Assembly (NCBI RefSeq): GCF_004959775.1
Contig: NZ_SJZG01000015.1
Coordinates: forward strand, 1-64,000
DNA: 64,000 bases
Reading direction: 5' to 3'
Source: Agromyces sp. H66
Lineage (GTDB): Bacteria; Actinomycetota; Actinomycetes; Actinomycetales; Microbacteriaceae
In this document: in pieces, positions 7,005 through 24,965 of the stretch
Layout of the letters: each line of letters opens with the position of its first letter
Position numbering within the stretch: the first letter of the stretch is position 1
Notes under the pieces: generated by a model
What the model saw: the letters and a program-made list of their open reading frames with translations, nothing else
Databases searched by the model: none
Told to the model about the DNA's origin: nothing
Position numbers and translations under genes: made by a program

Positions 7005-7074
7005 TGTGATCCACTCCTGTCAGTCGAATCGAACCCTTCAACTGTAGTGCGACCGGATCACCTCGCCCGCCGCA

Positions 7075-8172
7075 TCAGGCCACGGGCCCCGCCCTCACGG
7101 GCGAACGGACCGGCATCGATGCGCGCAGCGACTCGACCGACACGGTCGGTTCGGTCTCGAGCGGGAAATGGCACGCGACCCGATGGCCCCCGCCGACGTC
7201 CACGGGCCGCGGCTCCTCGACGGCGCAGGTGTCCTGCGCCCTGGGGCAGCGCGTGCGGAACCGGCATCCCGACGGCGGGTGCAGGGGCGACGGCGGCTCG
7301 CCGCGAAGGGTCACGGGGCGTCGCGCGATGCCGGTCTCGGGATCCAGTCCCGGGATCGAATCGAGGAGCGCCCGGGTGTACGGATGCCGCGGCGATCCGT
7401 AGACCCGTTCGGCGGTCCCCACCTCGGCGAGCTGACCGAGATGCATCACGGCGACCACGTCGCTCAGCTGCTTGACCGTGGCGAGATCGTGGGCGATGAA
7501 CACGTAGGACAGCCCCAGCTCGGCCCGGAGCTTCTCGAACAGGTTCATGATCTGCGCCTGGATGAGGACGTCCAGCGAGGAGATGGCCTCGTCGCAGATG
7601 ATGAGCGCGGGATTCGTGGCGATCGCTCGCGCGATGGCGACGCGCTGGGCCTGCCCGCCCGAGAGTTCGAGGGGACGCCGCCGCAGGTAGACGTCGGGGT
7701 TGAGCCCGACGAGGTCCAGGAGCTCGGTCACCCGAGCGCGCCGCTGCGCCTTGCCCAAGTCGGTGTGCCCGATCAACGGCTCGGCCACGACGTCCTCCAC
7801 CCGCCACCTCGGGTTCAACGATCCGAAGGGGTCCTGGTAGACCATCTGGATGTCGCGGCGGGCATGCCGCAGCTCCCGCTTGGACAGCTCCACGAGGTTG
7901 CGGCCCTTGAACCACACCTCGCCCGACTTCGGCCGTTCCACCTGGATCGTCGCTCGCGCGAGGGTGGACTTCCCGGATCCGGTCTCGCCGACGATGCCCA
8001 GCGTCTCGCCGACGCCCAGGTCGAATGAGACATCCGAAACTGCGTGCACGATGCCCGCCTTCACGCCGCCGGGCCCGCGGCTCACGTACTCCTGCACGAT
8101 GTGCCGCACCGACAGCAGCGGCAGGTCCGCGCCGCCCGCCGTCGCCGAGGTCGCGTCATCCCGCTCGTTCAC
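7075..8172 (-). CDS. Peptide/nickel-type ABC importer, second ATPase (DppF/OppF-like)
   Basis: This 365-residue ATPase energises the importer encoded upstream. It shows Walker A GETGSGKST, Q-loop VYQDPFGSLNP, signature LSGGQAQRVAIARAI, Walker B ALIICDEAISSLD and the His-switch FIAHDLA. The C-terminal Opp/Dpp extension contains the Cys-rich CRFRTRCPRAQDTC, which in homologues can bind an iron-sulfur cluster. The GTG start at 8172 overlaps the previous stop by 4 bp; a longer frame to 8319 lies inside the preceding gene. It is the last gene of the long minus-strand catabolic operon, 71 bp before thrS, and I see no clear terminator in that gap. Confidence 0.93.
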   Translation of the reverse strand: MNERDDATSATAGGADLPLLSVRHIVQEYVSRGPGGVKAGIVHAVSDVSFDLGVGETLGIVGETGSGKSTLARATIQVERPKSGEVWFKGRNLVELSKRELRHARRDIQMVYQDPFGSLNPRWRVEDVVAEPLIGHTDLGKAQRRARVTELLDLVGLNPDVYLRRRPLELSGGQAQRVAIARAIATNPALIICDEAISSLDVLIQAQIMNLFEKLRAELGLSYVFIAHDLATVKQLSDVVAVMHLGQLAEVGTAERVYGSPRHPYTRALLDSIPGLDPETGIARRPVTLRGEPPSPLHPPSGCRFRTRCPRAQDTCAVEEPRPVDVGGGHRVACHFPLETEPTVSVESLRASMPVRSPVRAGPVA

Positions 8173-9239
8173 GACTGACCCTCTCCTTCGGTCACGGCGC
8201 CTTCGGGCGGTGTCGCCCGATCGGCGTCGAGGTGAGGGTGCCAGCAGGCGTACCGATGACGCGGCTCGTGCTCGGTCAACTCCGGACGCACCGTGCACTG
8301 CTCGTCGGCGCGCGGGCACCTGGGCTCGAACGCGCAGCCGGGCGGCAGTGCCGAGAGGTCGGGGGGCTGGCCGCCGATGACGGCGAGCAGCGAGTGGGAG
8401 GGCGTCGACAGCTGCGGGATCGCTCCGAGCAGCGCCTTCGTGTACGGCATCCGCACGTTCCGGAACAGGGCTGCGGTCTCGGCCTGTTCGACGATCCGTC
8501 CGGCGTACATCACGAGCACCTCGTCCGCGTAGCTGGCCGCCAGGCCGAGATCGTGACTGATGATGACCACGGCCGTGCCCAGCCGCTGCTGCAGATCCAC
8601 CAGCAGCTCCATGATCTGCGCCTGGGTGGTGACATCCAGCGCCGTGGTCGCCTCATCGGCGATCAGCACCTTCGGATTCGATGCGAGCGCGATGGCGATC
8701 ATCACCCGCTGCCGCATGCCCCCGGACAGCTGGTGCGGATACTCGTGGAATCGGCGTTCCGCGGCGGGAAGGCGCACGAGCTTGAGCAGCTCGACCGCTC
8801 GATCGGCCGCCGCGGCCTTTCGCACCTCCCTGCGATGGGTGCGGATCGCTTCGACGATCTGCGCGCCGACGCTCATGGTGGGGTTGAGTGATCGCGCCGG
8901 ATCCTGGAACACCATGGCGATGTCCCGGCCGCGGATCTGCCGCATCGACCGCTCGTCGAGCCCGACCAGCTCGGTCCCGACGAGCCTGGCCGAACCGGTG
9001 ATGCGGGCGCTGGGCGGGAGCAGGCCCATGAGGGCGCGCACGCTGACCGATTTGCCGGAGCCGGACTCGCCGATGATCGCGAGCATCTGCCCGGCCCTGA
9101 GCTGATAGGAGATACCGTTCACCGCGTGGACGGGAGGGCCGCTCCGCGCGAAGGTCACTCGCAGGTCCTCGACGAGCAGCACGGCGTCGGGGTGGATCTC
9201 GGCCGTGACGGGCACGGCGGTGTCCTCGAGAGTCTTCAT
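8169..9239 (-). CDS. Peptide/nickel-type ABC importer, first ATPase (DppD/OppD-like)
   Basis: This 356-residue ATPase pairs with the next gene to form the nucleotide-binding heterodimer. Walker A is GESGSGKS, followed by Q-loop VFQDPARSLNP, signature LSGGMRQRVMIAIAL, Walker B VLIADEATTALD, switch IISHDLG and the Opp/Dpp C-terminal CAFEPRCPRADEQC. It overlaps its neighbours on both sides by 4 bp, so the transporter genes are translationally coupled. Substrate specificity is set by the binding protein and permeases, not here. Confidence 0.93.
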   Translation of the reverse strand: MKTLEDTAVPVTAEIHPDAVLLVEDLRVTFARSGPPVHAVNGISYQLRAGQMLAIIGESGSGKSVSVRALMGLLPPSARITGSARLVGTELVGLDERSMRQIRGRDIAMVFQDPARSLNPTMSVGAQIVEAIRTHRREVRKAAAADRAVELLKLVRLPAAERRFHEYPHQLSGGMRQRVMIAIALASNPKVLIADEATTALDVTTQAQIMELLVDLQQRLGTAVVIISHDLGLAASYADEVLVMYAGRIVEQAETAALFRNVRMPYTKALLGAIPQLSTPSHSLLAVIGGQPPDLSALPPGCAFEPRCPRADEQCTVRPELTEHEPRHRYACWHPHLDADRATPPEGAVTEGEGQS

Positions 9240-10120
9240 CGACCGCTCATTTCATCTCGTACGTTCTCTCCGAGCATGTTGAAGGAGAGCACGGTGACCA
9301 GCAGTGCGAGGCTCGGCCAGAGCACGAGGAGCGGGGTCGCCGACAGCGACTGCTGCCCCTCGAAGATCATGTTCCCCCAGCTCGGAGCGGGAGCCGGGAT
9401 GCCCATGCCGAGGAAGCTCAGCGCACCCTCGGTGACGATCACGATGCCCATGCCCAGCAGCGCGAAGTTCAGCATCTGCGGGGTGATGTTCGGCACGACG
9501 TGCCGCGTGAGGGTGCGCCACGTCGTGCTGCCGCTCAGCTCCGCCGCCTGGATGAACGGCATGTTCGCGATCTTCAGCGTCGCGGAGCGTGCGATGCGCG
9601 CGACCGCCGGAACGCTGAACGCCGAGAGCGCCAAGATCGTGTTCGGCACGCTCGGGCCCAGGATCTGGGCGATCGCGATGGTCAGGACGAGGGACGGGAA
9701 GGCGATCAGCACGTCCAGGGCGCGCATGATCACGGTGTCCGCCTTGCCGCCCAGGAAGCCCGAGACGGCGCCGATGCCCCCGCCGACGACGAGTCCGATG
9801 ACGTTCGTCGCGATGGCGATCGTGAGCGAGGCCCTGCCCCCGTAGATGAGTCGCGAGAGCACGTCGTTGCCGTTGACGTCGGTGCCGAGCGGATGTCCCG
9901 CGGTGCCCGGCGGAAGGCCGCTGTCCAGCACGCTCCCGCCGATCGGCGAGGGCAGCGGGAGGACGAACGGTCCCACGAAGCAGAGGAGCAGCAGGAACGT
10001 CACGGAGCCGGCCGGCACCCACACCACGAGCCGGCGGCGAATCCTCGCCCAGCGTTCGTTGCGGGATACCGCGTCGCTCGGGACGAGAGCGGCACCGATG
10101 GAGGCGTCAGCGATGGCCAT
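9236..10120 (-). CDS. Peptide/nickel-type ABC importer permease (DppC-like)
   Basis: This 294-residue membrane protein has the DppC/OppC layout. A first transmembrane helix at about residues 33-55 is followed by a periplasmic-type segment with PLGTDVNGNDVLSRLIYGGRASL, the OppC signature. A bundle of helices follows. The EAA coupling segment is AAELSGSTTWRTLTRHVVPN, which contacts the ATPase. It starts 14 bp inside the end of the DppB-like gene and its stop overlaps the first ATPase gene by 4 bp. Confidence 0.92.
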   Translation of the reverse strand: MAIADASIGAALVPSDAVSRNERWARIRRRLVVWVPAGSVTFLLLLCFVGPFVLPLPSPIGGSVLDSGLPPGTAGHPLGTDVNGNDVLSRLIYGGRASLTIAIATNVIGLVVGGGIGAVSGFLGGKADTVIMRALDVLIAFPSLVLTIAIAQILGPSVPNTILALSAFSVPAVARIARSATLKIANMPFIQAAELSGSTTWRTLTRHVVPNITPQMLNFALLGMGIVIVTEGALSFLGMGIPAPAPSWGNMIFEGQQSLSATPLLVLWPSLALLVTVLSFNMLGENVRDEMSGR

Positions 10121-11138
10121 AGCGAATCCTCGGATCGAGCACGGCGTACATCACGTCGACGACCAGGTTCGCGAGGACCGCGACGGCCGCGAAGATGAAG
10201 ACGCAGATCTGGACGACGGCGGTGTCGCGGCTCATCACGCCCTGCAGCATCAGCACGCCCAGGCCGGGCATGGAGAAGATCTGCTCGACGATGACGGTGC
10301 CGCCGACGAGCCCGCCGATGTTGAGGCCGACCAGCGTGAGCAGGCCGAAGGACGAGTTGCGGAAGGCGTGGCCCCAGAGCACCTTCCACGGCGTGACGCC
10401 CTTCGCGCGGGCCGTCTCGACGTAGTCCGCGGAGTTCATCTGCTCGACGAGGTCGCCGCGCAGGAACCTCGCGTAGAAGCACGCGAGGGGGATCGCGAGG
10501 GCGAGCACGGGAAGGGTGACCGATCGGAGGTTGGCCAGCAGTCCGTCGTCGAGGGACACGTAGCCGATCGCGGGGAGCGACCGCAGCGTCACGGCGAACA
10601 CGAGCACGAGCAGCAGTGCCATCACGTAGTTCGGCACGGCCAGCAGCGTCATCGAGATGACCATCACCACGCGATCGAACACCCCGCCGGGCTTGCGAGC
10701 CGCCAGCAGCGCGACCGGGATCGCGATCGCCAGGGAGACGAGGAACGCGAGCGCGACGAGTTCGATCGTGACCGGCATCCGTTCGGCCAGGAGCGACGTG
10801 ACCGGCTGCTCGCTCACCGAGGACCTTCCGAGGTTTCCGGTGACGAACCCGCCGAGCCACGTGAGGTATCGCTCGACGGCGGGGCGATCCAGTCCCATCT
10901 GCTTGCGGACCGCCTCGACCTGCTCCTCGGTCGCATCCATGCCCGCCTGGTTGCGAGCAGGGTCGCCGGGGATGGCCTCGAGCATCGCGAACACGAGGAT
11001 GCTGATGGCGAGCAACAGCGGAGTCGCGATGAGGATGCGCCGCGCGATCAGCCTGGCCAGAGGGGAGCCGAGCACCCGGCCGAGGAGGCTCGCGCGCTCC
11101 TCGGTCCGGATGCTCGTCGTGGCCACCGTCGTGGTCAC
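10107..11138 (-). CDS. Peptide/nickel-type ABC importer permease (DppB-like)
   Basis: This 343-residue permease has the DppB pattern. The first helix is IARRILIATPLLLAISILVF near residue 32, then comes GDPARNQAG in the external segment and the GNLGRS motif. Five further helices follow, with the EAA-loop YVETARAKGVTPWKVLWGHAFRN for ATPase contact. The GTG start at 11138 overlaps the binding-protein stop by 4 bp. Together with the DppC-like subunit it forms the membrane channel for the imported substrate. Confidence 0.92.
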   Translation of the reverse strand: MTTTVATTSIRTEERASLLGRVLGSPLARLIARRILIATPLLLAISILVFAMLEAIPGDPARNQAGMDATEEQVEAVRKQMGLDRPAVERYLTWLGGFVTGNLGRSSVSEQPVTSLLAERMPVTIELVALAFLVSLAIAIPVALLAARKPGGVFDRVVMVISMTLLAVPNYVMALLLVLVFAVTLRSLPAIGYVSLDDGLLANLRSVTLPVLALAIPLACFYARFLRGDLVEQMNSADYVETARAKGVTPWKVLWGHAFRNSSFGLLTLVGLNIGGLVGGTVIVEQIFSMPGLGVLMLQGVMSRDTAVVQICVFIFAAVAVLANLVVDVMYAVLDPRIRYGHR

Positions 11139-12913
11139 TGGCCGCTCGCCACCCAGACCCGGTCGTACAGGACGCCCTGATTGACCGACAGCGCGGGAAT
11201 CGGGTCGTCGAGACCCGGTCCGTGCACGCCCTTGCGGATGACCTGCGCCGGCGAGAACGCCATGCCGAACGGGGCATACGCCTGGTCGGAGATGTACGTG
11301 GCGATCTCCAGGTACTTGGCCTTCCGCTCGTCCTCGTCGTTGGTCGCCACGGCCTCATTGAGGAGGACGTCCAGCTCCGTCTGCAATCCGTTCTGCAACG
11401 CCTCCTGGGCGGAGGCGGCGCCCTCCGGAAGCGGGGTGCCGCTGAACGGCGACGTGGAGCCGAATCGCACGCCGACGCCGATGCCGACGGACGGATCCCA
11501 TGCGCCCGCGGTCTGCAGGAGCGACTGCCAGTCGCCGTTGATGAACCGGGTGATCACGTCGCCGAGCGGCTCGGCGTTGATGGTCACGTCGATGCCGGCC
11601 TCCGCCCACTGCGTCTGCAGCGCGGTGATCACCGATCGTGCGGTGACGATGTCGGTCGTGCCGAGGGTCACCGTCAGGCCTCCGAGCTCCTCGACGAGCG
11701 CCTTCGCCTTGTCGAGATCGTAGGTGCGGTAGCCGTCGACCTCCGGCTCGTAGAACAGCCCGCCGGAGGCGGTGAACGTCTGGCTCATCTCGCCTTCGCC
11801 CTTGAACAGGCCTTCGTTGATCGCCTCGAAGTCGGTGGCGTAGTAGATCGCCTCGCGCGCCCGGATGTCGTCGAACGGCGCGACCCGCGTGTTCAGCTGC
11901 ACGACGTACGGCGAGGTCGGTGCGCCGAGGTGCACCTCCACGTCGGGGTTGTTCGTGGCCTCGGTGATCAGCGGAACCGAGCTGAGACCCTCGATCACGT
12001 CGCCCTGTCCGGCCAGCAGCGTCTGGTAGGCCACCTGGTCACCGGCCACCGACTGGAAGTTGATCGCGTCGAGGTACGGCAGCCCCGGCTTGAAGTAGTC
12101 GGGGTTCTTCGTGAGTTCGAGGCGCTCGCTCATCTTGTTCGACTCGACGACGAAGGGGCCGGCACCCACGGGGTTGAGGCTGAACTCCTCGGGCGTGGTC
12201 GCCGCGTATGCGGTCGGCGACGCGATCAGGTTGAAGCTCGAGGTCGGGAAGCCGTTGATGAGGGCTCCGTTGACGGCCGTCAGAGTCATGGTGACGGTGA
12301 GTTCGTCGGTGGCCTGGATGGCGCCGAGATGCCGTTCGACGGCCTCCCGGTCGACGTCGGCCGGGAGCGCCTCCCACAGGCTCGTCATGAACTCGTCGCC
12401 GAGGTCGGGAGCGGGGATGGTCTCGTCCAGCTGCAGCCGCGGCGTCCCCGTGCTGCCGGAGTTCAGCGCTCGGATCCAGTTCCACACGACGGCCTCGGCG
12501 TTCAGCGGCGTCCCGTCGGTGAACGTGATGCCGTCCCGGAGGGTGATCGTCAGCGTCAGGCCGTCGTCCGACCAGCTGTACGCCTCGGCCTGGTTCGGCA
12601 CGATCTCGCCGCCGCCGTCGCCGTCGGGCTCGAGCGTGAACAGGCCGCCGAAGATGGCGGAATTCTGCGCGAGGTTCGCGCCCGTGGTGTTGCTCGTCGC
12701 TGGGTCCAGGCCCGTGGCCCATCCTCCGGCGAACCCGGAGTCCAGCAGCACCGTCAGTTCGCCGCCGGGCGTCGGGTCGCCGGCCGCACCGGAACTGCCG
12801 CCGTCGCCACCTCCGCTCACGCATCCGGTGGCCGCCATGGCCAGTCCGCTTACGACGGCGAGCGTGCCGATCAGCCGCTTCGCTGATCGCCCGCCCTTCG
12901 CACTTCTCGTCAT
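11135..12913 (-). CDS. ABC importer substrate-binding lipoprotein (family 5)
   Basis: This 592-residue solute-binding protein delivers the substrate to the permease pair. It has a basic N-terminus, a hydrophobic stretch and a lipobox ending MAATGC, so Cys31 should be lipid-anchored. A Gly/Ser-rich linker follows, then the family 5 (SBP_bac_5) signature region with WSDDGLTLTITLRDGITFTDG. The ATG at 12913 has GGGA upstream and is placed correctly for the signal peptide; a longer frame to 13336 lies inside the preceding gene. Family 5 proteins bind peptides, nickel, glycosides, opines and other organics, so the ligand cannot be named. Its stop and start both overlap neighbouring genes. Confidence 0.93.
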   Translation of the reverse strand: MTRSAKGGRSAKRLIGTLAVVSGLAMAATGCVSGGGDGGSSGAAGDPTPGGELTVLLDSGFAGGWATGLDPATSNTTGANLAQNSAIFGGLFTLEPDGDGGGEIVPNQAEAYSWSDDGLTLTITLRDGITFTDGTPLNAEAVVWNWIRALNSGSTGTPRLQLDETIPAPDLGDEFMTSLWEALPADVDREAVERHLGAIQATDELTVTMTLTAVNGALINGFPTSSFNLIASPTAYAATTPEEFSLNPVGAGPFVVESNKMSERLELTKNPDYFKPGLPYLDAINFQSVAGDQVAYQTLLAGQGDVIEGLSSVPLITEATNNPDVEVHLGAPTSPYVVQLNTRVAPFDDIRAREAIYYATDFEAINEGLFKGEGEMSQTFTASGGLFYEPEVDGYRTYDLDKAKALVEELGGLTVTLGTTDIVTARSVITALQTQWAEAGIDVTINAEPLGDVITRFINGDWQSLLQTAGAWDPSVGIGVGVRFGSTSPFSGTPLPEGAASAQEALQNGLQTELDVLLNEAVATNDEDERKAKYLEIATYISDQAYAPFGMAFSPAQVIRKGVHGPGLDDPIPALSVNQGVLYDRVWVASGQ

Positions 12914-14043
12914 GTGATCTTCCCTTGGTATGGGGCAGCGACACCAGTCGCGTCCGCGGTCGTCATTGAGCCGGAACCGATTCCACCGGAAGTCTCGTCC
13001 AGGCCGGGAGAGCGATCTATGGCACTTCCATCCGACGGCAGAGACCGCACGTCGCGGCCGAGCCAGCGCAGGGCGTTCCGCCAGCTGATGTCCTGCCAGG
13101 CGTCGTCGGGAAGCTCCATCGACCTGAGCGTCCGGGCCACCGGATCCTCGCGGAGCATCGCCGGGAAGTCCGAACCGACCAGGAGGCGATCCGCGCCCAG
13201 CAGGTCGACCAGGTACCGGATGGCACGGTGGTCGAAGACCATCGAGTCGTAGTAGAAGCGACGGGCGATCTCGAGGGGCGACGGCCCGTCGTCGGGCATG
13301 ACGGCCCGGTCGAGGTTCCTGGGCTCCTCGTTCCACGCACCGCCCCAGAAGTAGTTGGCGCGCGGCAGCATCATCGCCAGCCCGCCGGCGGCATGGCTGA
13401 ACGAGATCCGAAGGTCGGGACAGGCATGGGCCGTCCCGCCGAGGATCATGGATGCCGCGGCGAACGTCCCCTCGATGCCCACCACGTACGTCCCCATCGC
13501 CGACATCGGGAGCCGGTCCATCGGCGACGGCATCGCATGGACGAACACGGAGATGCCCAGCTTCTCGGCCTCCTGGAAGAACGGCAGGAACTTCTCGTCG
13601 CCGATCGAGCTCCCGAGGATGTTCGAGGCGATCTCGACGCCGGCCAGTCCCAGCTCCGCGATGGCGGCGAGTTCGGCGGTCGCGGCATCCGGATCCTGCA
13701 TCGGCACCATGCCGAGGCCGATCAGCCGGTCAGGCGCGTGGGAACCGAGCTCGGCCGTGAACTCGTTGACGTGGCGGGCGAGGGCGAGTCCGTCGCGCGC
13801 GGGCAGGTCGTACCGCAGCAGGGGCGGCATGGGGCTGAGGACCTCTGCGTCGACCCCCGAGGCATCCTGGGCTTCGAGGCGTCGCTCGGCCTCGAAGAAC
13901 ACCTCCTTCGCCGGGAAGCGCATCGGCCCGAACACCAGGAGGCGATCGGTGCTCCCCTCTATCGGCTCCATGTGCGGGAAGCACTCCGGGGCGTCGTCGG
14001 GATAGTCCTTCGGGAGCAGGTGGGCGTGGGCGTCGATGATCAC
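12910..14043 (-). CDS. Amidohydrolase-2 family metal-dependent hydrolase/decarboxylase (ACMSD-like)
   Basis: This 377-residue TIM-barrel protein starts MIIDAHAHLLP, giving the metal-binding HxH of the amidohydrolase-2 (ACMSD-like) family. Further family residues are the VFVHAMPSP region, a later His in ISFSHAAGG and the catalytic Asp in LLVGSDFPAM. Members are non-oxidative decarboxylases such as ACMSD and gamma-resorcylate decarboxylase, or hydrolases of ring-cleavage products. The GTG at 14043 is chosen because GAGGGG lies about 5 bases upstream and homologues begin here. It sits between the third dehydrogenase (17-bp gap) and the binding protein (4-bp overlap). A second, divergent member is encoded at 22011-22892. 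Confidence 0.87.
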   Translation of the reverse strand: MIIDAHAHLLPKDYPDDAPECFPHMEPIEGSTDRLLVFGPMRFPAKEVFFEAERRLEAQDASGVDAEVLSPMPPLLRYDLPARDGLALARHVNEFTAELGSHAPDRLIGLGMVPMQDPDAATAELAAIAELGLAGVEIASNILGSSIGDEKFLPFFQEAEKLGISVFVHAMPSPMDRLPMSAMGTYVVGIEGTFAAASMILGGTAHACPDLRISFSHAAGGLAMMLPRANYFWGGAWNEEPRNLDRAVMPDDGPSPLEIARRFYYDSMVFDHRAIRYLVDLLGADRLLVGSDFPAMLREDPVARTLRSMELPDDAWQDISWRNALRWLGRDVRSLPSDGSAIDRSPGLDETSGGIGSGSMTTADATGVAAPYQGKIT

Positions 14044-14060
14044 GGTGACCCCTCGTCGCG

Positions 14061-15167: not shown

Positions 15168-15247
15168 CTGGGTCTCACATCTCTCGTGGCGATCGGGTCA
15201 GGGTCGGGAACTCGCGGCCGCGCCGTCGGCACGGACGTGATCGGGGG

Positions 15248-15319
15248 TCAGGTTGGCACGTACGCGGGCGGGCCGCCGTCGACCGCGAGGATCCGGCCGG
15301 TGATCCAGCGCGCGGTCAC
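15248..15319 (-). pseudogene. Remnant of a short-chain dehydrogenase gene (both ends kept)
   Basis: A 23-codon frame starts with GTG overlapping the preceding stop by 4 bp (GTGA). It encodes VTA, then RWITGRILAVDGG and a short tail to a stop. The segment WITGRILAVDGG is the conserved C-terminal motif of short-chain dehydrogenases, which normally lies about 230 residues after the start. The simplest reading is an internal deletion that removed nearly the whole gene but left its coupled start codon and last 20 codons. The product would have no Rossmann fold or active site. Confidence 0.75.
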
Positions 15320-16916: not shown

Positions 16917-16956
16917 GACGGTGTTCCTCCCTCTTCGCGAGCGATCTCGGATCGCG

Positions 16957-18078
16957 TCAGCCGTCGTGGACGATGACGCCGCGGATGTTCTTGCCGTCGT
17001 TCAGGTCTCGGTACGCCTCGTTGACCTCGTCCAGCGCGTAGGTGCGCGTGACGAGCTCGTCGAGCTTGAGGTCACCGGCCCGGTAGAGGCCCAGCAGCTT
17101 CGGGATGTCGTACAGGGGGTTGCAGTCGCCGAAGAGCGCACCGCGGATCTGGCGCTGGTAGCCGATCAACATCCCGGCGTGCACGTGGACGGCCTTCTCC
17201 GCCAGATGGCCGACCGCCGTGATGGTCACCTTGCCGCCCTTGCCCGTCATCATGACGGCCCGGTTGACCATCTCCTCGGTCACGACGCCGGGCGTGAGGA
17301 TCGCATGATCGGCAAGCTGGCCCCACGTGGTCGCGTTGACGAAGTCGTGCGCTTCCGCGGCGTCGGCGAACGTGTGGGTCGCCCCGAACCTCATGGCGTT
17401 CTCGCGCTTGAACTCGACGGGGTCGATCACGACGACGTTCTTGGCACCCGCGTAGCGGGCTCCCTGCACGGCGTTGCTGCCGACACCCCCGGCTCCGAAG
17501 ATCACGGCCGTGTCGCCCGGCTTGACGCCGGCCGCATAGACCGCGGATCCCCAGCCGGTGGGGACGCCGCAGCCGACCAGCGAGGCGATCTCGAAGGGGA
17601 TGTCGTCGGCCAGGGGCACCACGGCCCACTCCGAGACGACCGCGTACTGCGAGAACGTGCCCAGCGAGCAGAAGCCGCCGAAGTCCTCGCCGTCCTTGTG
17701 GAACCGGTACGTGCCGTCCAGGAACATGCCGCTGCCGGCGTTGAGCCCCTTCACGCACATGTTCTGGTGCCCGGTGGAACACGGTCGGCACGCACCGCAC
17801 GCCGGGATGTAGGAGCAGACCACGCGGTCGCCCGCCTTGACCCGGGTGACGTTCGGGCCGACCGATTCGACGATGCCGGCGCCCTCGTGGCCGCCGACGA
17901 TCGGGAAGCGCACGGGAGCATCGCCGGCCGTGATGTGATCATCGGAATGGCACAGGCCGGACGCCGCGAACTTGACGCGGACCTCGTGCTCCTTGGGGTC
18001 GTCGAGCTCGAGATCGGTCAGTTCCCAGCCGAGGTGCGGGCCGCGCGCGATCGCGGCGTGTGTCGTGATGGTCGCCAT
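16957..18078 (-). CDS. NDMA-dependent (mycofactocin-type) alcohol dehydrogenase, copy 1
   Basis: This 373-residue zinc MDR enzyme matches the Rxyl_3153/NDMA-dependent alcohol dehydrogenase family. Catalytic ligands are Cys43 in GLCHSDDH and His64-Glu65 in GGHEGAG. The structural zinc is held by Cys94, 97, 100 and 108. Family signatures VGCGVPTGWGSAVYAAGV, VVIDPVEFKRENAM and LDELVTRTY are present, as is the NAD motif GAGGVGSNA. Known members hold NAD non-exchangeably and need an external acceptor, mycofactocin in vivo or NDMA in vitro. It is the third gene of the minus-strand operon, followed by UGSC and preceded by the aldehyde dehydrogenase. Confidence 0.9.
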   Translation of the reverse strand: MATITTHAAIARGPHLGWELTDLELDDPKEHEVRVKFAASGLCHSDDHITAGDAPVRFPIVGGHEGAGIVESVGPNVTRVKAGDRVVCSYIPACGACRPCSTGHQNMCVKGLNAGSGMFLDGTYRFHKDGEDFGGFCSLGTFSQYAVVSEWAVVPLADDIPFEIASLVGCGVPTGWGSAVYAAGVKPGDTAVIFGAGGVGSNAVQGARYAGAKNVVVIDPVEFKRENAMRFGATHTFADAAEAHDFVNATTWGQLADHAILTPGVVTEEMVNRAVMMTGKGGKVTITAVGHLAEKAVHVHAGMLIGYQRQIRGALFGDCNPLYDIPKLLGLYRAGDLKLDELVTRTYALDEVNEAYRDLNDGKNIRGVIVHDG

Positions 18079-18095
18079 GTCTGTTCGTCAACCTC

Positions 18096-19586
18096 TCATC
18101 GACCGAGCGATGCGGCTTCGCGCATCGAGACGGTCTTCACCTGGGTCCAGTCGAGCACCGAGTCGGCGCCCATCGTCCGGCCGAAGCCGCTGTTCTTGTA
18201 GCCGCCGAACGGCGCGCCGATCGCCGGTGCCCCGAGCGCGGTGTTCACGGCGACCTGTCCGGCCTGCAACGCCCGGCTCATCCGCACCGCGGTGCCGAGA
18301 TCCCGCGTCCACACCGAAGCGACCAGGCCGTAGTCGGTGCCGTTGGCGACGCGGATCGCCTCCTGCTCGTCGTCGACCGGGATCACCGAGAGCACCGGAC
18401 CGAAGATCTCCTCCTGGGCGATGCGCATGTCGGGGTCGACCTTGTCGAACAGCGTCGGCGCGACGAAGAATCCGTCGCCGAATCGGTCGCCGGTCGGGGC
18501 CACGCCGCCCGTCACGACCTCCGCGCCCGCCTCCTTGCCCAGCTCGATGTAGCCGAGCACGCGCGCATGCTGCTTCGCGTTGATGAGCGGCCCCATGTTC
18601 ACGGGCTCGTGCCACGGCCCGACGGTCACCGTCTGCATCTGGGCGGCCAGTCGATCGACGACCTCCGCGTGGATGCGCCGGTCGACGACGACCCTCGACC
18701 CCGCCGCGCAGATCTGACCCGTGTTGAGCGTGATGCCGGCGACGATGGCGGGAACGGCCGCATCGAGATCGGCGTCCGAGAAGATGACCTGCGGCGACTT
18801 GCCGCCCAGTTCGAGGTGAAGGGGGGTGAGGTTGCGGGCACACGCCTCCATGACCAGGGCGCCCGTCTGCGGGGAGCCGGTGAACCCCATCCGGCGGATG
18901 CGGGGGTGGGCGGGCAGCGCGGCACCCGCTTCGGTGCCGTAGCCGGTGACCACGTTGATCACGCCCGGCGGGATCCCCGCCTCGAGCGCGAGCTTCGCCA
19001 TCGCGAGCGGAGTCAGCGGGGCATCCTCCGCGGGCTTCATGACCATCGTGTTCCCCGCGGCGATCGCCGCTCCGACCTCCGTGACGAACATCGGCCCCGG
19101 AGCGTTCCACGGGATGATCCCGCCGACGACGCCGTACGGCTCCCGCAGCGTGAACCCGAGCGTGTCGGGCGAGTACGTCGGCAGCGAGACGCCCTGCACC
19201 TTGTCCGCCTGGCCGGCGATGAACCGCAGCTGCCGTGGCGTTCCCAGCGGGCCCCAGCTCGGGCGGCCGACCTCCTGTCGTTCGAGTTCGTCGAGCGCCT
19301 CCGCGTTCTGTTCGATCAGGTCGGCCCAGCGGAACAGCAGGCGTCCGCGCTCGGTCGCATTCAGGTCGCGCCACGCCGGGAATGCCTGCTCCGCCGCCTG
19401 CACCGCCGCCTCGACATCGTCGGCGGTTCCTCGCGGTACCCGGGCGATCAGCTGCCGGTTCGCCGGATTGATCACGTCGATCGTCTCGCCGGCGGCGGCG
19501 GACACCCAGTCGCCGCCGATGAGGTGGACGCCGTCGACGACGAGGTCGCTGTCGATGGTCGTCCGGTCGTTGGAGATGATGGTCAT
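18096..19586 (-). CDS. NAD(P)-dependent aldehyde dehydrogenase
   Basis: This 496-residue protein is a full-length ALDH-superfamily member that oxidises aldehydes to acids. The oxyanion-forming IIPWNAPGPM, the catalytic Glu in LELGGKSP and the nucleophilic Cys in NTGQICAAGSR are all present, as is the cofactor-binding EEIFGPVLSV. It lies between the two NDMA-type alcohol dehydrogenases with gaps of 17 and 15 bp, so it most likely removes the aldehyde they make. ATG at 19586 follows a GAGGG element. The aldehyde itself cannot be named. Confidence 0.93.
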   Translation of the reverse strand: MTIISNDRTTIDSDLVVDGVHLIGGDWVSAAAGETIDVINPANRQLIARVPRGTADDVEAAVQAAEQAFPAWRDLNATERGRLLFRWADLIEQNAEALDELERQEVGRPSWGPLGTPRQLRFIAGQADKVQGVSLPTYSPDTLGFTLREPYGVVGGIIPWNAPGPMFVTEVGAAIAAGNTMVMKPAEDAPLTPLAMAKLALEAGIPPGVINVVTGYGTEAGAALPAHPRIRRMGFTGSPQTGALVMEACARNLTPLHLELGGKSPQVIFSDADLDAAVPAIVAGITLNTGQICAAGSRVVVDRRIHAEVVDRLAAQMQTVTVGPWHEPVNMGPLINAKQHARVLGYIELGKEAGAEVVTGGVAPTGDRFGDGFFVAPTLFDKVDPDMRIAQEEIFGPVLSVIPVDDEQEAIRVANGTDYGLVASVWTRDLGTAVRMSRALQAGQVAVNTALGAPAIGAPFGGYKNSGFGRTMGADSVLDWTQVKTVSMREAASLGR

Positions 19587-19601
19587 GACGATGCCCTCGC
19601 T

Positions 19602-20711
19602 TCAGTGTTCGATTCGGATGACGCCGCGGATGTTCTTGCCGTCATTCATGTCCTGGTAGCCCTGATTGACGTCCTCGAGGCGGTACGTCCTCGTGACGAG
19701 TTCGTCGAGTTTCAGATCGCCCGACTGGTAGAGGCTGAGGAGCCGCGGCACGTCGAACAGCGGGTTGCAGGCGCCGAAGATGGCGCCCTGGATGCGTCGC
19801 TGGAACCCGATCAGCATCCCCGGGTTCTCGTCGATCCACCCGTTGCCCACCGCGGTGATCGTCACCTGTCCGGTCTTGCCGACGATGTTGACGGCGTCGT
19901 GGATGACCTTGTCGTGCAGCACCCCGACCGTGATGATGGCGTGGTCGGCGAGCTCTCCCCAGGTCGACTGGATGACGAACTCGGTCGCCTCCTCGGCGGT
20001 GGCGAAGGTGTGGGTGGCGCCGAAGACCTTCGCCATGTCGCGCTTGAACTCGACCGGATCGACGACCACCACGCGCTGGGCGCCGGCGAGCGCGGCGCCC
20101 TGCACCGCGTTGCTGCCCACGCCGCCGGCGCCGAAGATCACGACCGTCTGCCCGGCCTGGACGCCCGCCGCATGCACTGCCGAGCCCCACCCGGTCGGCA
20201 CGGCGCATCCCACGAGCGCCGCCACCTCGAAGGGGATCTCCTTCGGGATGGGGATGACGGAGTACTCCGAGACGACGGCGTACTCCGAGAACGTGCCCAG
20301 CACGCACAGGCCGCCGAAGTCGGCGCCATCCTGGTGGAACCGGAACGAACCGTCCGCGAACTCGCCGGTCGACGCATTCTTGCCTTCGTCGCACAGGTTC
20401 TGGCGACCGGTCGAACAGTACCGGCACTTCCCGCACGCGGGGATGAACGAGCAGACGACGTGATCGCCCACCTTCACTCGGGTCACGCCCGCGCCGACCG
20501 CGTCGACGACGCCCGCGCCTTCGTGCCCGCCCACCACGGGCATCCGCATGGGCGCGTCGCCCTTCTGGATGTGGTCGTCCGAGTGGCACAGGCCTGCGGC
20601 GTGGATCTTGATGCGAACTTCGTTCGCACGGGGATCGTCGAGTTCGAGTTCCGTGATCTCCCAGGGCGATCCCGGCTCGCGGCAGACGGCCGCACGTGTG
20701 GTCATGCTCAT
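19602..20711 (-). CDS. NDMA-dependent (mycofactocin-type) alcohol dehydrogenase, copy 2
   Basis: This 369-residue enzyme is a close relative of the copy at 16957-18078 and has the same family signatures: GLCHSDDH, GGHEGAG, the four-Cys zinc site PACGKCRYC...C, VGCAVPTGWGSAVHA, VDPVEFKRDM and LDELVTRTY. It is the first gene of the minus-strand operon, with AGGAGAGGGG before its ATG. Two members in one operon suggest either two alcohols in the pathway or a hetero-oligomer. Use of mycofactocin is inferred from family membership; no mft genes are in the window. Confidence 0.9.
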   Translation of the reverse strand: MSMTTRAAVCREPGSPWEITELELDDPRANEVRIKIHAAGLCHSDDHIQKGDAPMRMPVVGGHEGAGVVDAVGAGVTRVKVGDHVVCSFIPACGKCRYCSTGRQNLCDEGKNASTGEFADGSFRFHQDGADFGGLCVLGTFSEYAVVSEYSVIPIPKEIPFEVAALVGCAVPTGWGSAVHAAGVQAGQTVVIFGAGGVGSNAVQGAALAGAQRVVVVDPVEFKRDMAKVFGATHTFATAEEATEFVIQSTWGELADHAIITVGVLHDKVIHDAVNIVGKTGQVTITAVGNGWIDENPGMLIGFQRRIQGAIFGACNPLFDVPRLLSLYQSGDLKLDELVTRTYRLEDVNQGYQDMNDGKNIRGVIRIEH

Positions 20712-21007
20712 GTGACCCCTCTCCTCATGTCCTGCAGATGTGACGGGCCGCGAACCATCGGAGGTCGACGTCGTCGTCGGCTGGCCGCTGCAGCGCGACC
20801 TCCTCCACCGTGGGCCGTCGCCCGCACCCCCGGATAGGCGACTTTCGCCTCACGGAAGAACTCGTTGCGAATCGCCGTCGCCGATCCCACGGGTCGATCC
20901 GGCCTGCCGATTCGGGCCGGACTTCTGCTCGACGGAAGACGCGATGGCAACCCGCGCGGCACTCGCTTGACTGACCTCTACGACGACGAGGCGGAAGAGG
21001 GACCGGC
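20712..21007. promoter_or_regulatory. Divergent control region of the catabolic cluster
   Basis: This 296-bp gap separates the minus-strand operon from the plus-strand CoA-transferase operon, so it must hold both promoters or their control sites. I see no credible gene in it. Short A/T-richer stretches (around 20845-20870) could hold promoter elements, but I cannot name convincing -35/-10 pairs. No exact copy of the IclR-type palindrome found before iclR is present here. Confidence 0.5.
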
Positions 21008-21763
21008 GTGATCGACAAGTACCGAGAGGACGTGATGGCTGCGCTGGACGTCGTGCCGTCCGGCTCCTCGATCGCCGTGGGCGGCTTCGGCAGCTCGGGC
21101 CGACCCGACGCGCTGCTCAACGCGCTCTGCGATCTCGACCGACGCGACCTTCACCTGATCGTCAACAACGTCGGCGACGACTTCACGGGCGTCGGCCGGC
21201 TCCTCGTCGAGGGGCGCGTGCGTCGCTTCACCGGATCCTTTCCGATCCTTCCCGCCTTCTACGAGGCGTACTTCGCCGGAAGGGTCGAACTGGAGTTGAT
21301 CCCCCAGGGCACGCTCGCCGAGCGGATGCGGGCCGGGGGTGCGGGAATCGCGGCGTTCTTCACCCCATCTGCGGCGGACACGATGCTCTCCGACGGAACG
21401 TTCCCGATCAGGTACGCCGACGGACGCGGAGCGGCCCATTTCGCCCCCGAGGAGACACGCGAGTTCGACGGTCGGCTGCACGTGCTCGAGCACGGCATCG
21501 CCGCGGACTTCGGGCTCGTCAAGGCGCAGAAGGGCGATCGGAAGGGCAACCTGCGGTTCCATCTGTCGGCGCGCAACTTCAACCCGCTCGCGGCGATGAG
21601 CGGACGCACGACGTTCGCAGAGGTCGAGCGACTCGTGCCGGTGGATGAGATCGGACCGGACGACATCCATCTCCCTGGCGTGTTCGTCCACCACGTCGTG
21701 ATGACGGCGGAGCCGGTGCCGGCCGGTCCCGAATACACCTCCGCGGCGGAAGGAGCAGCATGA
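21008..21763 (+). CDS. CoA-transferase family I, subunit A (SCOT/AtoD-like)
   Basis: This 251-residue protein matches the alpha subunit of 3-oxoacid CoA-transferases. The N-terminal SSIAVGGFGSSGRPDALLNAL and the segments LIVNNVGDD, LIPQGTLAERMRAGGAGI and ADFGLVKAQKGDRKGNL are diagnostic. It would bind the CoA moiety while subunit B supplies the catalytic Glu. GTG at 21008 has AGAGGGA upstream. The next gene is subunit B, overlapping by 4 bp, but that gene has lost its middle. Subunit A therefore has no intact local partner. Confidence 0.9.
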   Translation: MIDKYREDVMAALDVVPSGSSIAVGGFGSSGRPDALLNALCDLDRRDLHLIVNNVGDDFTGVGRLLVEGRVRRFTGSFPILPAFYEAYFAGRVELELIPQGTLAERMRAGGAGIAAFFTPSAADTMLSDGTFPIRYADGRGAAHFAPEETREFDGRLHVLEHGIAADFGLVKAQKGDRKGNLRFHLSARNFNPLAAMSGRTTFAEVERLVPVDEIGPDDIHLPGVFVHHVVMTAEPVPAGPEYTSAAEGAA

Positions 21764-22014
21764 CCACGATCGACGTCCGCACCCCGGTGCTCGTCGGACG
21801 CACGCGCGACGAGATCGCGCAGCGCCTCGCCGCCGACCTCGTCGACGGCTACACCGTCAACCTCGGGGTCGGCATTCCCCTGGCCGTGCCGAGGTTCATC
21901 CCCGACGGCATCGCGGACGGACGACTCCGGCTCACGGAGTGCGCCCCGGGCATCACGCCCGAGCAGGTCCGCCAGCGGACCGCGGCCGCCTACACCGAGG
22001 AGCTCGACTCATGA
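21760..22014 (+). pseudogene. CoA-transferase subunit B with large internal deletion
   Basis: The 84-codon frame begins like a normal beta subunit (RDEIAQRLAADLVDGYTVNLGVGIPLAVPRFIPDG). It then jumps directly to the normal C-terminus (RLRLTECAPGITPEQVRQRT). About 130 residues are missing, including the ENG segment with the catalytic glutamate. The frame is kept, the start overlaps subunit A (ATGA) and the stop overlaps the next gene (ATGA), so translation of the downstream genes would be unaffected. The product cannot be a working transferase. A clean in-frame deletion is the simplest cause; an assembly collapse is possible. Confidence 0.8.
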
Positions 22015-22892
22015 GCGGACGACCGGCACTCGCGGATCTCGTCGCCATCGACGTGCATGCCCACGTCCACCGAGGCGTCGCCGGCGACGAACACGGACCG
22101 GGCGGCGCCGAGGCGATGGGCGAGTACTTCGGGATCGGGACGATGCCGCGGTACACCGTCCCGGAACTCGCGGCGTACTACCGGGAACGCAGCATGATGG
22201 CGGTGGTCTTCACGGTCGACAGCGCCTCGCAGAGCGGCGCGGAGCCCGAGCCCTCGAACGAGGAGATCGCCCGCCTCGCCGCCGAGAACTCCGACGTTCT
22301 CATCCCGTTCGCGAGCATCGACCCCGCACGCGGCCGTGTCGGCGTCGAGCAGGCGAGGCGCCTGATCACCGAGTTCGGCGTCCGCGGATTCAAGTTCCAC
22401 CCGAGCGCCCAAGGGTTCTATCCCAACGATCGCTCGGCGTATCCGCTGTTCGAGGTGATCGAGGAGCACGGGCTGATCGCCCTGTTCCACTCGGGACAGA
22501 CGGGGGTGGGCGCCGGGCAGCGTGGCGGCGGCGGCATCCGTCTCAAGTACGCGAATCCGCTGTTCATCGACGACGTGGCCGCCGACTTCGCCGACATGGA
22601 CATCATCTTGGCCCACCCGTCCTTCCCATGGCAGGACGAGGCGCTGTCGGTGGCGACGCACAAGCCGCGCGTCTACATCGACCTGTCGGGGTGGTCGCCC
22701 AAGTACTTCCCCCCGCAGCTTGTGCAGTACGCCAACACGCTGCTCAAGCACAAGATGCTGTTCGGATCGGACTTCCCCGTCCTCACGCCGGAGCGATGGA
22801 TGCGCGACTTCGAAGAGCTGCCCATCAAGGACGAGGTCCGCCCGCTCATCCTGAAGGAGAACGCGGCACGCCTGCTGGGATTCGACACCTGA
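22011..22892 (+). CDS. Amidohydrolase-2 family protein (ACMSD-like)
   Basis: This 293-residue TIM-barrel protein starts its fold with IDVHAHVHRG, the HxH metal site. It contains FKFHPSAQGF, the family His in DIILAHPSFPWQDEAL and the final Asp in LFGSDFPVLTP. The sequence resembles actinobacterial amidohydrolases found in aromatic and alicyclic catabolic clusters. The ATG at 22011 overlaps the previous stop by 4 bp, so a longer upstream frame is discarded. It is distinct from the minus-strand amidohydrolase (12910-14043), so the cluster contains two such enzymes for two steps or two substrates. Confidence 0.87.
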   Translation: MSGRPALADLVAIDVHAHVHRGVAGDEHGPGGAEAMGEYFGIGTMPRYTVPELAAYYRERSMMAVVFTVDSASQSGAEPEPSNEEIARLAAENSDVLIPFASIDPARGRVGVEQARRLITEFGVRGFKFHPSAQGFYPNDRSAYPLFEVIEEHGLIALFHSGQTGVGAGQRGGGGIRLKYANPLFIDDVAADFADMDIILAHPSFPWQDEALSVATHKPRVYIDLSGWSPKYFPPQLVQYANTLLKHKMLFGSDFPVLTPERWMRDFEELPIKDEVRPLILKENAARLLGFDT

Positions 22893-22968
22893 CCCGCGTG
22901 CACCGTCGCGTGCCCGCGTACCCGTCGCCGGGGCATCCGCCTCGACCGAGAACGAGGAGACCTGATCC

Positions 22969-23883
22969 ATGGAGAACGTGAGCGGCAAAGTCGCCGTCAT
23001 CACCGGCGGTTCGAGCGGAATCGGCCGCGGCATCGCGACCGCCCTCGCCCGCGCCGGCGCCCGCACCGTCGTGACCGGCCGCCGCCGGGAGGCCCTCGAT
23101 GCGACGGCCTCCGCGTTCGCGGAGGAGGGCCTCGAGGTGCACACGATCCGTGCCGACGTCACCGACCTCGACGCGATGCGCGCGGCGGCCGACGAGGTGG
23201 AGTCCCGTTTCGGCCGCGTCGACATCCTCGTGAACAACGCGGGCATCGGGCTGACCGGTCGCGTGGTCGATGCGACGCCGGACGATTGGAACTGGGTGAT
23301 CGACGTCAACATCCGGGGCGTCGGCAACGGCATCCAGGCGTTCCTTCCCAAGATCCGCGCGCACGGCGACGGCGGCCAGATCGTGAACACCGCATCGATG
23401 GCGGCGCTCATGCCGATCGTCGCCGGCCTGTACTCGATGACCAAGGGCGCCATCGTCGCGCTGTCCGAGGCGATGCACATCGAGCTGCGGGACGAGAACA
23501 TCGGCGTGTCCGCCTACTGTCCCGGTCCGGTGCACAGCGACATCGCCACGAACGTCGCGAACCGCCCCGCCAGGTACGCGGCATCGGGCTACGCCCCGCC
23601 CGACCCCGCGTTCGCAGCGGCGTCGAAGCTGCAGCCCTACATGACGGCCGAGGAGGCCGGCGAGCGCGTGCTGCGGGGAATCCTGCGCGGGGACATGTTC
23701 ATCCTCACGCATCCCGAGTTCAAGGCCGGCGTCGTCGCCCGGCATCGGGCGATCGAGGACGCGTTCCCCGACGAGCCGCTCGACGAGGCGCGGGCTGCGG
23801 CGATCCCGTTCCTCACCTCGTCGCCGGCCTACGCGCCGGAGAACCGCCTCCCGTCCCCCACGTCGCCGGCGGGGGCCGTCTGA
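22969..23883 (+). CDS. Short-chain dehydrogenase/reductase
   Basis: This 304-residue classical SDR has the cofactor motif TGGSSGIGRG, the NNAG motif, the catalytic Ser in NTASMAAL and YxxxK in YSMTKGA. It is longer at the C-terminus than the classical 250-residue form. Residues such as CPGPVHSD fit the usual Rossmann layout. It lies 76 bp after the amidohydrolase and ahead of iclR. It would oxidise a hydroxyl or reduce a carbonyl in the pathway. I do not see the insertion that marks mycofactocin-coupled SDRs, so it probably uses free NAD(P). Confidence 0.9.
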   Translation: MENVSGKVAVITGGSSGIGRGIATALARAGARTVVTGRRREALDATASAFAEEGLEVHTIRADVTDLDAMRAAADEVESRFGRVDILVNNAGIGLTGRVVDATPDDWNWVIDVNIRGVGNGIQAFLPKIRAHGDGGQIVNTASMAALMPIVAGLYSMTKGAIVALSEAMHIELRDENIGVSAYCPGPVHSDIATNVANRPARYAASGYAPPDPAFAAASKLQPYMTAEEAGERVLRGILRGDMFILTHPEFKAGVVARHRAIEDAFPDEPLDEARAAAIPFLTSSPAYAPENRLPSPTSPAGAV

Positions 23884-23893
23884 GCACTCGCAT

Positions 23894-23910
23894 CCGTTCC
23901 GACGGAACGG
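23894..23910. promoter_or_regulatory. Palindrome, candidate IclR-family operator
   Basis: CCGTTCCGACGGAACGG is a perfect inverted repeat with a single central base. It contains TTCC-N3-GGAA, the general shape of IclR-family operators. It lies 75-91 bp before the iclR start and just upstream of an A/T-rich stretch with a possible -10 box (TATAGC at 23935-23940). Autoregulation by the adjacent IclR protein is the likely meaning; a role in ending the SDR transcript is the alternative. Confidence 0.55.
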
Positions 23911-23984
23911 CGAAAATTCTTTCAGCTAGCCTGATATAGCAAGTACCGTGTCTGCAACGCCTCTCGCACGAAGAAGGGTCGACG

Positions 23985-24785
23985 ATGACCATCAGCCAGA
24001 TCCGTTCGGCTCGATCCGGGCCGATGACCGCGGCGCAACGCGCACTCGCCATCCTGGAATGCTTCGATCAGGACCATCTGCTGCTCACGCTGAGCGAGAT
24101 CAGCAGACGCTCCACCCTGAGCCTGAGCACGACGCATCGCCTCGTCGGCGAATTGCGTGAGTGGGGTGCCCTCGAACGCGTCCCCGACGGCCGGTACGCA
24201 ATCGGAATGCGCATCCTCGAACTCGGCTCGCTCGAGCCGCAGGGCATGCGCCTGCGCGAGGTCGCCCTGCCCTTCCTGGGCGACCTGCAGGCCGCGACGA
24301 ACGCGAACGTGCATCTCTCCGTCCGCGACGGACACGACGTCGTCTACGTGGAGTCGCTCCACGCCCGGGGCGGCGCCGACGTGCTCTCCCGCCTCGGTGG
24401 CCGGTGGCCGCTCCATGCCACGGCCACGGGACTCGTCCTGCTCGCGTTCGCGCCGCACGAGTTCCGCGAGGAGGTGCTCTCGAGCCCGCTGAAGCAGTTC
24501 ACCCCCCGCACGGTGACGTGCCCCGACCGACTCCGCCACGTGCTCGCCGACGTGCGACGCACCGGCGTCGGGATGGTGGAGGACTCGATCACGCCCAACT
24601 GCGTCTCGGTCGGCGTGCCGGTGCGCGGCCCCCGCGATCAGATCGTGGGCGCCGTCGCCGTGACCGTGCCCGCGACGAAGTCCTCCCCGCACGCGCTCCT
24701 GCCCGCACTGTCGGCGACCGCGCGGGCGATCTCGCGCGGTCTCGGCGCCCCCTCGGCGAAGGGACGCCCGAACACAGCCGCCTGA
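23985..24785 (+). CDS. IclR-family transcriptional regulator
   Basis: This 266-residue protein has an N-terminal winged helix-turn-helix (about residues 16-75, with LTLSEISRRSTLSLSTTHRLVGEL). The C-terminal IclR effector domain begins near LREVALPFLGDL and includes VVYVESL and HATATGLVLLAF. IclR proteins commonly control a neighbouring catabolic operon in response to a pathway intermediate. It ends the plus-strand gene group and is the only regulator in the accessory region. A good RBS (AAGAAGGG) precedes ATG 23985. A palindrome upstream is a probable binding site. Confidence 0.92.
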   Translation: MTISQIRSARSGPMTAAQRALAILECFDQDHLLLTLSEISRRSTLSLSTTHRLVGELREWGALERVPDGRYAIGMRILELGSLEPQGMRLREVALPFLGDLQAATNANVHLSVRDGHDVVYVESLHARGGADVLSRLGGRWPLHATATGLVLLAFAPHEFREEVLSSPLKQFTPRTVTCPDRLRHVLADVRRTGVGMVEDSITPNCVSVGVPVRGPRDQIVGAVAVTVPATKSSPHALLPALSATARAISRGLGAPSAKGRPNTAA

Positions 24786-24786
24786 G

Positions 24787-24810
24787 CGCGGGGCGGGATC
24801 ATCCCCCGCG
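24787..24810 (+). terminator. Hairpin after iclR
   Basis: CGCGGGG at 24787-24793 pairs with CCCCGCG at 24804-24810 around a 10-base loop, starting directly after the iclR stop. No U-run follows. Confidence 0.5.
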
Positions 24811-24840
24811 GATGGGGTTCTCGCTTCTCCGGAAATGGAA

Positions 24841-24865: not shown

Positions 24866-24870
24866 GATGG

Positions 24871-24942: not shown

Positions 24943-24965
24943 AAGTCGAGCGCGAGGACTCGGCT

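Follow-up and report, generated by a model that had tools for sequence, protein, structure and literature searches.

Gene content of the thrS/tRNA-Val site

The DNA analysed here, referred to as the window, is a stretch of 64,000 nucleotides from Agromyces sp. H66 (contig NZ_SJZG01000015.1, positions 1 to 64,000), and it carries an accessory block of 17.8 kb in which the genes for a UGSC protein and its partner (PART) lie among genes for two NDMA (N,N-dimethyl-4-nitrosoaniline)-type alcohol dehydrogenases (ADH1 and ADH2), further catabolic enzymes and an ATP-binding cassette (ABC) importer. An earlier note on this DNA had proposed that these genes form a complete uptake and oxidation pathway for an alcohol-bearing compound, in which the UGSC pair carries out a step not yet described. 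The features of the block and its flanks are as follows.

5058-7004, thrS flank (named from reading of the frame, not from a family scan)
7049-24867, no strand, accessory block (blastn against three same-genus loci, and tRNA positions)
7075-8172, minus, importer ATPase 2 (ATP2; PF00005 and PF08352, domains scanned in a longer frame, 7075-8319; start as given by the gene caller)
8169-9239, minus, importer ATPase 1 (ATP1; PF00005 and PF08352)
9236-10120, minus, importer permease 2 (PERM2; PF00528)
10107-11138, minus, importer permease 1 (PERM1; PF00528, PF19300)
11135-12913, minus, solute-binding lipoprotein SBP_bac_5 (SBP), 592 aa (PF00496, 2.2e-69)
12910-14043, minus, AMH1, amidohydrolase superfamily (Amidohydro_2), like 2-amino-3-carboxymuconate semialdehyde decarboxylase (ACMSD), decarboxylase branch (ACMSD match 2.4e-37)
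14061-15167, minus, ADH3, zinc dehydrogenase of threonine/sorbitol dehydrogenase type (PF08240/PF00107)
15316-16371, minus, PART, 351 aa, GTG start, 4-nt overlap with the UGSC gene
16368-16916, minus, UGSC protein, 182 aa, C100-G-S-C103 (PF24696, NF041046; GrdB selenocysteine-domain match)
16957-18078, minus, ADH2, NDMA-type alcohol dehydrogenase, 373 aa (TIGR03989, 517 bits; dedicated clade)
18096-19586, minus, aldehyde dehydrogenase (ALDH), 496 aa (PF00171, 4.8e-164)
19602-20711, minus, ADH1, NDMA-type (mycofactocin-linked) alcohol dehydrogenase, 369 aa (TIGR03989, 528 bits)
21008-21763, plus, 3-oxoacid CoA-transferase subunit A (TIGR02429, 231 bits, cut-off 128.5)
21760-22014, plus, CoA-transferase subunit B remnant, internally deleted, 84 aa (comparison with relatives)
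22011-22892, plus, AMH2, second Amidohydro_2 protein (PF04909)
22969-23883, plus, short-chain dehydrogenase/reductase (SDR) oxidoreductase (PF00106)
23985-24785, plus, IclR-family regulator (PF01614, PF09339)
24868-24942, tRNA-Val(gac) flank (tRNA calls)

The site occupied by the block is variable. Judged by blastn, three genomes of the same genus have thrS and a cluster of tRNA genes (Val, Cys, Gly) on either side of the corresponding position, and the DNA between the matched flanks that has no blastn match to the window amounts to about 1.2, 2.4 and 7.3 kb, compared with 17.8 kb here; on these comparisons the block was apparently acquired by lateral transfer. Its 12 minus-strand genes (7075-20711) run in the order ADH1, ALDH, ADH2, UGSC, PART, ADH3, AMH1, SBP, two permeases and two ATPases, neighbours overlapping by 4-14 nt or being spaced by 15-40 nt, with the sole exception of 148 nt between PART and ADH3. 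Gene calls and family scans agree with the earlier note on this series and its families, including the two NDMA-type dehydrogenases, both well above the TIGR03989 cut-off of 440 bits, and a complete importer of the peptide/nickel type, all five components of which were matched by Pfam (SBP_bac_5, two permeases and two ATPases with the oligo_HPY domain). The frame of the solute-binding protein begins at 12913 and encodes a lipoprotein-like precursor whose relatives include YliB and heme-, dipeptide- and nickel-binding proteins.

The divergent plus-strand set (21008-24785) likewise contains the second amidohydrolase, SDR, IclR regulator and CoA-transferase A subunit that had been described, but the CoA-transferase is not intact: the frame for the B subunit has lost 139 central residues relative to an intact relative, with 50 residues remaining at the N-terminal end and 34 at the C-terminal end. 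Twelve B-type genes of 219-234 aa were called in related loci. As an active 3-oxoacid CoA-transferase requires an intact A and B pair, CoA transfer by this pair has probably been lost here, and the claim that the pathway is complete was not borne out in this strain. Among the remaining enzymes, ADH3 has L-threonine 3-dehydrogenase as its best solved match (7e-36), residues 1-331 of the 377 of AMH1 align with ACMSD, and AMH2 has a single solved match within an E limit of 1e-5, the uncharacterised BB4693. No kynurenine-pathway gene was seen within the block. Consensus scans of 6900-25100 gave no promoter-like sites, against 0.8 expected, and two terminator-like sites, against 4.7. One of the two falls within the SBP gene, on the opposite strand; the other is a minus-strand hairpin at 24841-24865, where the block ends on the right, directly downstream of the gene for tRNA-Val.

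Conservation of the cluster and its link to mycofactocin

Recurrence of the cluster was assessed by a scan with a PART alignment, from which the best 80 of 155 confirmed loci were taken, so that close PART relatives are favoured; genes were counted at each locus by tblastn (at least 45% identity over at least 60 residues), a procedure in which ADH1 and ADH2 cross-match and are not distinguished. The order seen in the window recurs around PART, with some insertions, in Microbacterium, Citricoccus, Phytoactinopolyspora, Frigoribacterium, Pseudonocardia, Saccharopolyspora and metagenome-assembled genomes (MAGs) of Streptosporangiaceae, and a partial or rearranged cluster is present in Geodermatophilus, Amycolatopsis, Acidimicrobiales and Solirubrobacterales. 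Across the 80 loci the UGSC gene was found in 75, an NDMA-type alcohol dehydrogenase-like gene in 58, ADH3 in 50 and AMH1 in 48; importer genes were somewhat less frequent (ATP1 40, PERM1, PERM2 and ATP2 37 each, SBP 25), as were those for IclR (40), ALDH (35), SDR (16), AMH2 (13) and CoA-transferase A (11). An NDMA-type dehydrogenase-like gene occurred together with UGSC, PART, ADH3 and AMH1 in 38 loci, and 13 loci held an 11-gene core (ADH1, ADH2, ALDH, UGSC, PART, ADH3, AMH1, SBP, PERM1, PERM2 and ATP1), with two alcohol dehydrogenase genes each. Pairwise distances of PART, ADH3, AMH1, PERM1 and SBP, from 28 loci and the window, correlate with r of 0.57-0.95, uncorrected for relatedness. 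Judged by gene content and order, then, the genes of this cluster travel together across actinobacteria.

Within its own order PART is rare, being found in two of 297 genomes, its own included, at E up to 1e-40, with three copies in its own genome. The two further UGSC/PART pairs lie on other contigs (L013, 7837-9433; L014, 10424-12018; L numbers denote loci) beside other transporter, amidohydrolase or acyl-CoA-type genes, with no NDMA-type dehydrogenase in the stretch read. The closest named UGSC protein is that of Agromyces bauzanensis (86%).

Mycofactocin-coupled NDMA-dependent alcohol dehydrogenases constitute the TIGR03989 family (Haft 2011, PMC3023750), and with an E limit of 1e-100 ADH1 and ADH2 are the only two members that this genome has. 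In a tree built from 101 cluster-associated dehydrogenases, of which nine were removed by a length filter of 330-420 aa, 90 of the 92 retained fall, under midpoint rooting, into one clade (support 0.88), separate from 29 further TIGR03989 proteins found in the phylum. By family score and phylogeny, ADH1 and ADH2 therefore belong to the mycofactocin-dependent family and to a dedicated clade within it. Enzymes of this family hold NAD tightly without exchanging it and give their electrons to NDMA or mycofactocin. The genome has its own mycofactocin (mft) locus outside the block (L015, G000:C23), where MftC, D, E, F and G score above their cut-offs (MftA and MftB were not established) and four mycofactocin-coupled SDRs are also encoded.

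The mycofactocin maturase gene mftC was sought in the genomes behind 50 of the 80 loci (mostly MAG fragments were omitted), which, with L030 excluded and two genomes contributing two loci each, left 47 genomes. It was found in 43 of these, compared with 16 of the 297 genomes of the order, the present one included, and none of the six same-genus genomes listed. The four without it were those of L021, L044 and L049, where no NDMA-type dehydrogenase-like gene was found at the locus, and of L090, where the genes are fragmented. This comparison mixes lineages, and mft genes may be present anyway in many genomes of the Pseudonocardia or Amycolatopsis type, so that only the Micrococcales subset gives a like-for-like test; here mftC was present in nine of 11 genomes (Fisher p 1.7e-9 against 16 of 297), the subset being assigned from genome names and the searched order being assumed to be the same group. 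On these gene surveys, genomes carrying the cluster nearly always carry mftC. In seven of 13 genomes checked, several of which were picked since coordinates appeared close, mftC lies on a contig of the same size as that of the cluster, six times within about 26 kb of PART and once about 137 kb off, and in the other six it is on a different contig. MftD adjoins the cluster in L017, and L018 has a matching gene by clustering. With the known mycofactocin-coupled dehydrogenases the present system shares the family scores of both dehydrogenases, the presence of mftC-G in the genome and the co-occurrence of mftC. One characterised role of mycofactocin concerns ethanol in mycobacteria (PMC11778925, PMC6529628), and the available parts of those reports mention no UGSC protein, ABC importer or ACMSD-like protein, all of which are present here.

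The UGSC protein, its partner and the relation to GrdB

The UGSC protein of the window matches PF24696 (208 bits) and NF041046 (158 bits, cut-off 125), the profiles of the published UGSC family, and shares its C/U-G-S-C motif in the form CGSC, with cysteine rather than selenocysteine (Sec). Both cysteines of the motif are invariant in 67 aligned UGSC proteins, stop-interrupted frames not being among them. For UGSC-containing selenoproteins a thioredoxin (Trx)-like fold and a redox role have been suggested, and a fused domain 'Unknown_1' is mentioned, in the accessible part of the survey concerned (PMC2398784), which gives the family a redox role only, whereas here it is tied to PART and to mycofactocin-linked catabolism. 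In our AlphaFold2 model (pLDDT 91.4) strands and helices alternate, an arrangement that may differ from the suggested Trx-like fold, and C100 would lie between strand 92-98 and helix 101-116; fold matches were mostly Rossmann/flavodoxin-like in a comparison not aimed at Trx chains.

Comparison of a profile of 81 UGSC sequences, plasmid-borne ones included, with one of nine aligned GrdB sequences (PF07355 genes were found in 11 actinobacterial genomes) by hhalign gave a match to the Sec domain of GrdB over 89 columns with a score of 39.5 (E 2.5e-5, probability 75%), in which the UGSC Cys-Gly falls on the GrdB Sec-Gly and Cys100 takes the Sec position. Controls scored at most 21.2 (45 other families), 12.4 (reversed profile) and 19.8 (40 column shuffles). 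Sec had been written as Cys in this comparison; with that position masked the score was 36.8, and with the Paracoccus row dropped as well 37.6. A Pfam scan of the 67 UGSC proteins, with an E limit of 5, gave matches to 21 families, and GRDB (PF07355) was none of them. On profile evidence, UGSC appears to be distantly related to the glycine reductase component GrdB and to share its Sec/Cys-bearing domain. The GrdB/PrdB proteins (of glycine, sarcosine, betaine and D-proline reductases) and UGSC have in common an aligned Sec/Cys position, and thioredoxin reductase (TrxR) genes lie near several UGSC relatives. They differ in that the remainder of GrdB is absent from UGSC and that no GrdE- or GrdC-type protein is found among the cluster genes by Pfam assignment or, for PART, by direct comparison. 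The classic hosts of GrdB are amino-acid-fermenting anaerobes, unlike the present host with its respiration-type mft set including MftG.

Exchange of Cys for Sec at the aligned position is suggested by the relatives. Of 84 called UGSC genes 79 have CGSC; four frames, from Solirubrobacterales MAGs of one naming series (L078, L079, L086 and L092), stop at TGA followed by GSC, and the fifth (L034) looks frameshifted. All four TGA loci also hold PART and an NDMA-type dehydrogenase-like gene, and a Paracoccus plasmid UGSC gene has TGA at the same position with selB nearby. From these sequences the TGA may be read as selenocysteine.

PART matched no Pfam or NCBIfam family and gave no clear match in the PDB, despite a confident structure model. 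Its Cys76 is identical in all 18 aligned distant relatives, and a set of polar residues is invariant across bacteria and archaea. In Variovorax boronicumulans UGSC and PART are fused with CGSC retained, and in haloarchaea two PART-like genes flank UGSC (L097, 7983-10645; L125, 4279-6978), which suggests a heteromeric partner. TrxR genes are present in five of the 80 loci by clustering at 40% identity, above the TIGR01292 cut-off in L041, L047, L052 and L056 and as a partial gene below it in L093. Plasmid annotation was examined for 17 of 24 plasmid matches: TrxR above the cut-off lies near UGSC/PART in Arthrobacter, Variovorax SRS16 and Roseovarius plasmids, related flavoproteins below it in Haloterrigena and V. 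boronicumulans, and no TrxR was annotated in the stretches from Paracoccus, Vibrio, Sporomusa, Acidovorax and the remaining haloarchaea (the Embleya stretch lists no genes). A thioredoxin-type gene adjoins UGSC/PART members in two loci, in one annotated as trxA.

Encoded in 26 loci, and often next to UGSC or PART, is a protein of about 80 aa with a conserved AC-x2-C motif (for example L017, 4210-4452); the UGSC protein of an Arthrobacter plasmid (L096, 8997-9812) ends in a similar C-terminal stretch. The small protein matched no Pfam family, was not found in the window, and is possibly a third component. A sulfur link is also possible: an Arthrobacter plasmid (L096, 5668-6456) and a haloarchaeal plasmid (L121, 2835-3302) have genes annotated as phosphosulfolactate synthase close to UGSC/PART, and in Paracoccus (L103) genes for TusA, DsrE and cysteine desulfurase are close by.

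A proposed pathway and its alternatives

Our working hypothesis, to which we give an even chance of being right, is that the block encodes one laterally acquired catabolic system for import, mycofactocin-linked oxidation and decarboxylation of an alcohol, with a GrdB-like cleavage by UGSC/PART. The order of the pathway and each of its reactions are deduced from gene families. The importer would bring in a compound bearing a primary alcohol, which ADH1 and ADH2 would oxidise to an aldehyde, electrons passing via mycofactocin and MftG to respiration; ALDH would convert the aldehyde to an acid, ADH3 and the SDR would form a ketone from a secondary alcohol, with AMH1 acting as a decarboxylase. UGSC and PART would then cleave a carbon-heteroatom bond next to a carbonyl by attack of the Cys100 thiolate (a selenolate in some relatives), and the resulting Cys100-Cys103 disulfide would be re-reduced by thioredoxin and thioredoxin reductase. 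IclR may control the divergent operons, and CoA activation of the product has probably been lost or is supplied elsewhere in this strain. More tentatively, and thinking it somewhat more apt to fail than to hold, we suggest that UGSC, as a Cys/Sec protein related to GrdB, and PART, with its unrecognised fold, together make up an enzyme class of a new, two-component kind that performs thioredoxin-fed reductive carbon-heteroatom cleavage in respiring bacteria and archaea, so that here one substrate would be oxidised via mycofactocin and then cleaved reductively. No published description of such a system was found in the literature searched.

Several observations weigh against this proposal. An NDMA-type dehydrogenase-like gene is absent from the fetched DNA in 22 of the 80 loci (some on short contigs), which indicates that UGSC/PART serve other pathways as well, and in L050-L053, L055, L056, L062 and L075 the locus has no such gene, yet the genome carries mftC. 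The GrdB match comes from comparing one pair of profiles, built on shallow alignments, rather than from a database search, with a probability of 61-75% that falls to 36% (38% masked) with a narrower UGSC alignment, and PART matched none of GrdE, GrdC and GrdB. No TrxR or Trx gene was found in the cluster of the window or, by clustering, in 75 of the 80 loci, and for the TGA genes the SECIS (selenocysteine insertion sequence) and SelB findings are mixed. Single-chain UGSC-PART fusions on Vibrio and Sporomusa plasmids (L101, 7344-9029; L102, 7299-9023) have MGTS in place of CGSC, so that not every relative can use the CGSC cysteines; these fusions lie near aconitase X genes.

If the block encodes one pathway, UGSC/PART might nevertheless be a non-redox lyase, hydratase or isomerase using a covalent thiol or none. 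We consider this unlikely, though the most serious of the alternatives, as both cysteines are invariant in the aligned proteins, the first is encoded by TGA in five other loci, and TrxR and, in two loci, thioredoxin-type genes adjoin some members. It is less probable still that the pair is no pathway enzyme but an accessory device for thiol protection or maintenance, for example of the importer or the dehydrogenases: the TrxR neighbours would suit such a role, as would the placing of UGSC among probable redox proteins in the accessible part of selenoproteome surveys (PMC2398784), but the pair occurs in differing clusters with their own transporters, and the invariant polar residues of PART are as expected of an active site. 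The idea that unrelated catabolic genes simply accumulated at a hot spot beside a tRNA gene would account for the variation of the site between same-genus genomes and for the decaying CoA-transferase. We think it highly improbable, as it is already contradicted by conserved synteny, much the same gene order being found in distant genera, and the dehydrogenases form a dedicated clade and mycofactocin genes co-occur. The view of the earlier note that the genes act as one system has thus held up under its own proposed check, co-occurrence in other genomes, with recurring order in several genera, the tie to mycofactocin and the dehydrogenase clade in agreement. Its pairing of UGSC with NDMA-type dehydrogenases applies to many loci but not to all, and its suggestion of an undescribed step gains support and a sharper form from the GrdB-like domain, the TGA variants and the TrxR neighbours.

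On our preferred reading of a single catabolic system, the conserved operon gives a concrete setting to the systems that it joins. With an importer, two dehydrogenases and a decarboxylase-like enzyme encoded together, the substrate should be findable, and the apparent relation to GrdB, with exchange of Cys and Sec at one position, would make the mechanism directly testable.

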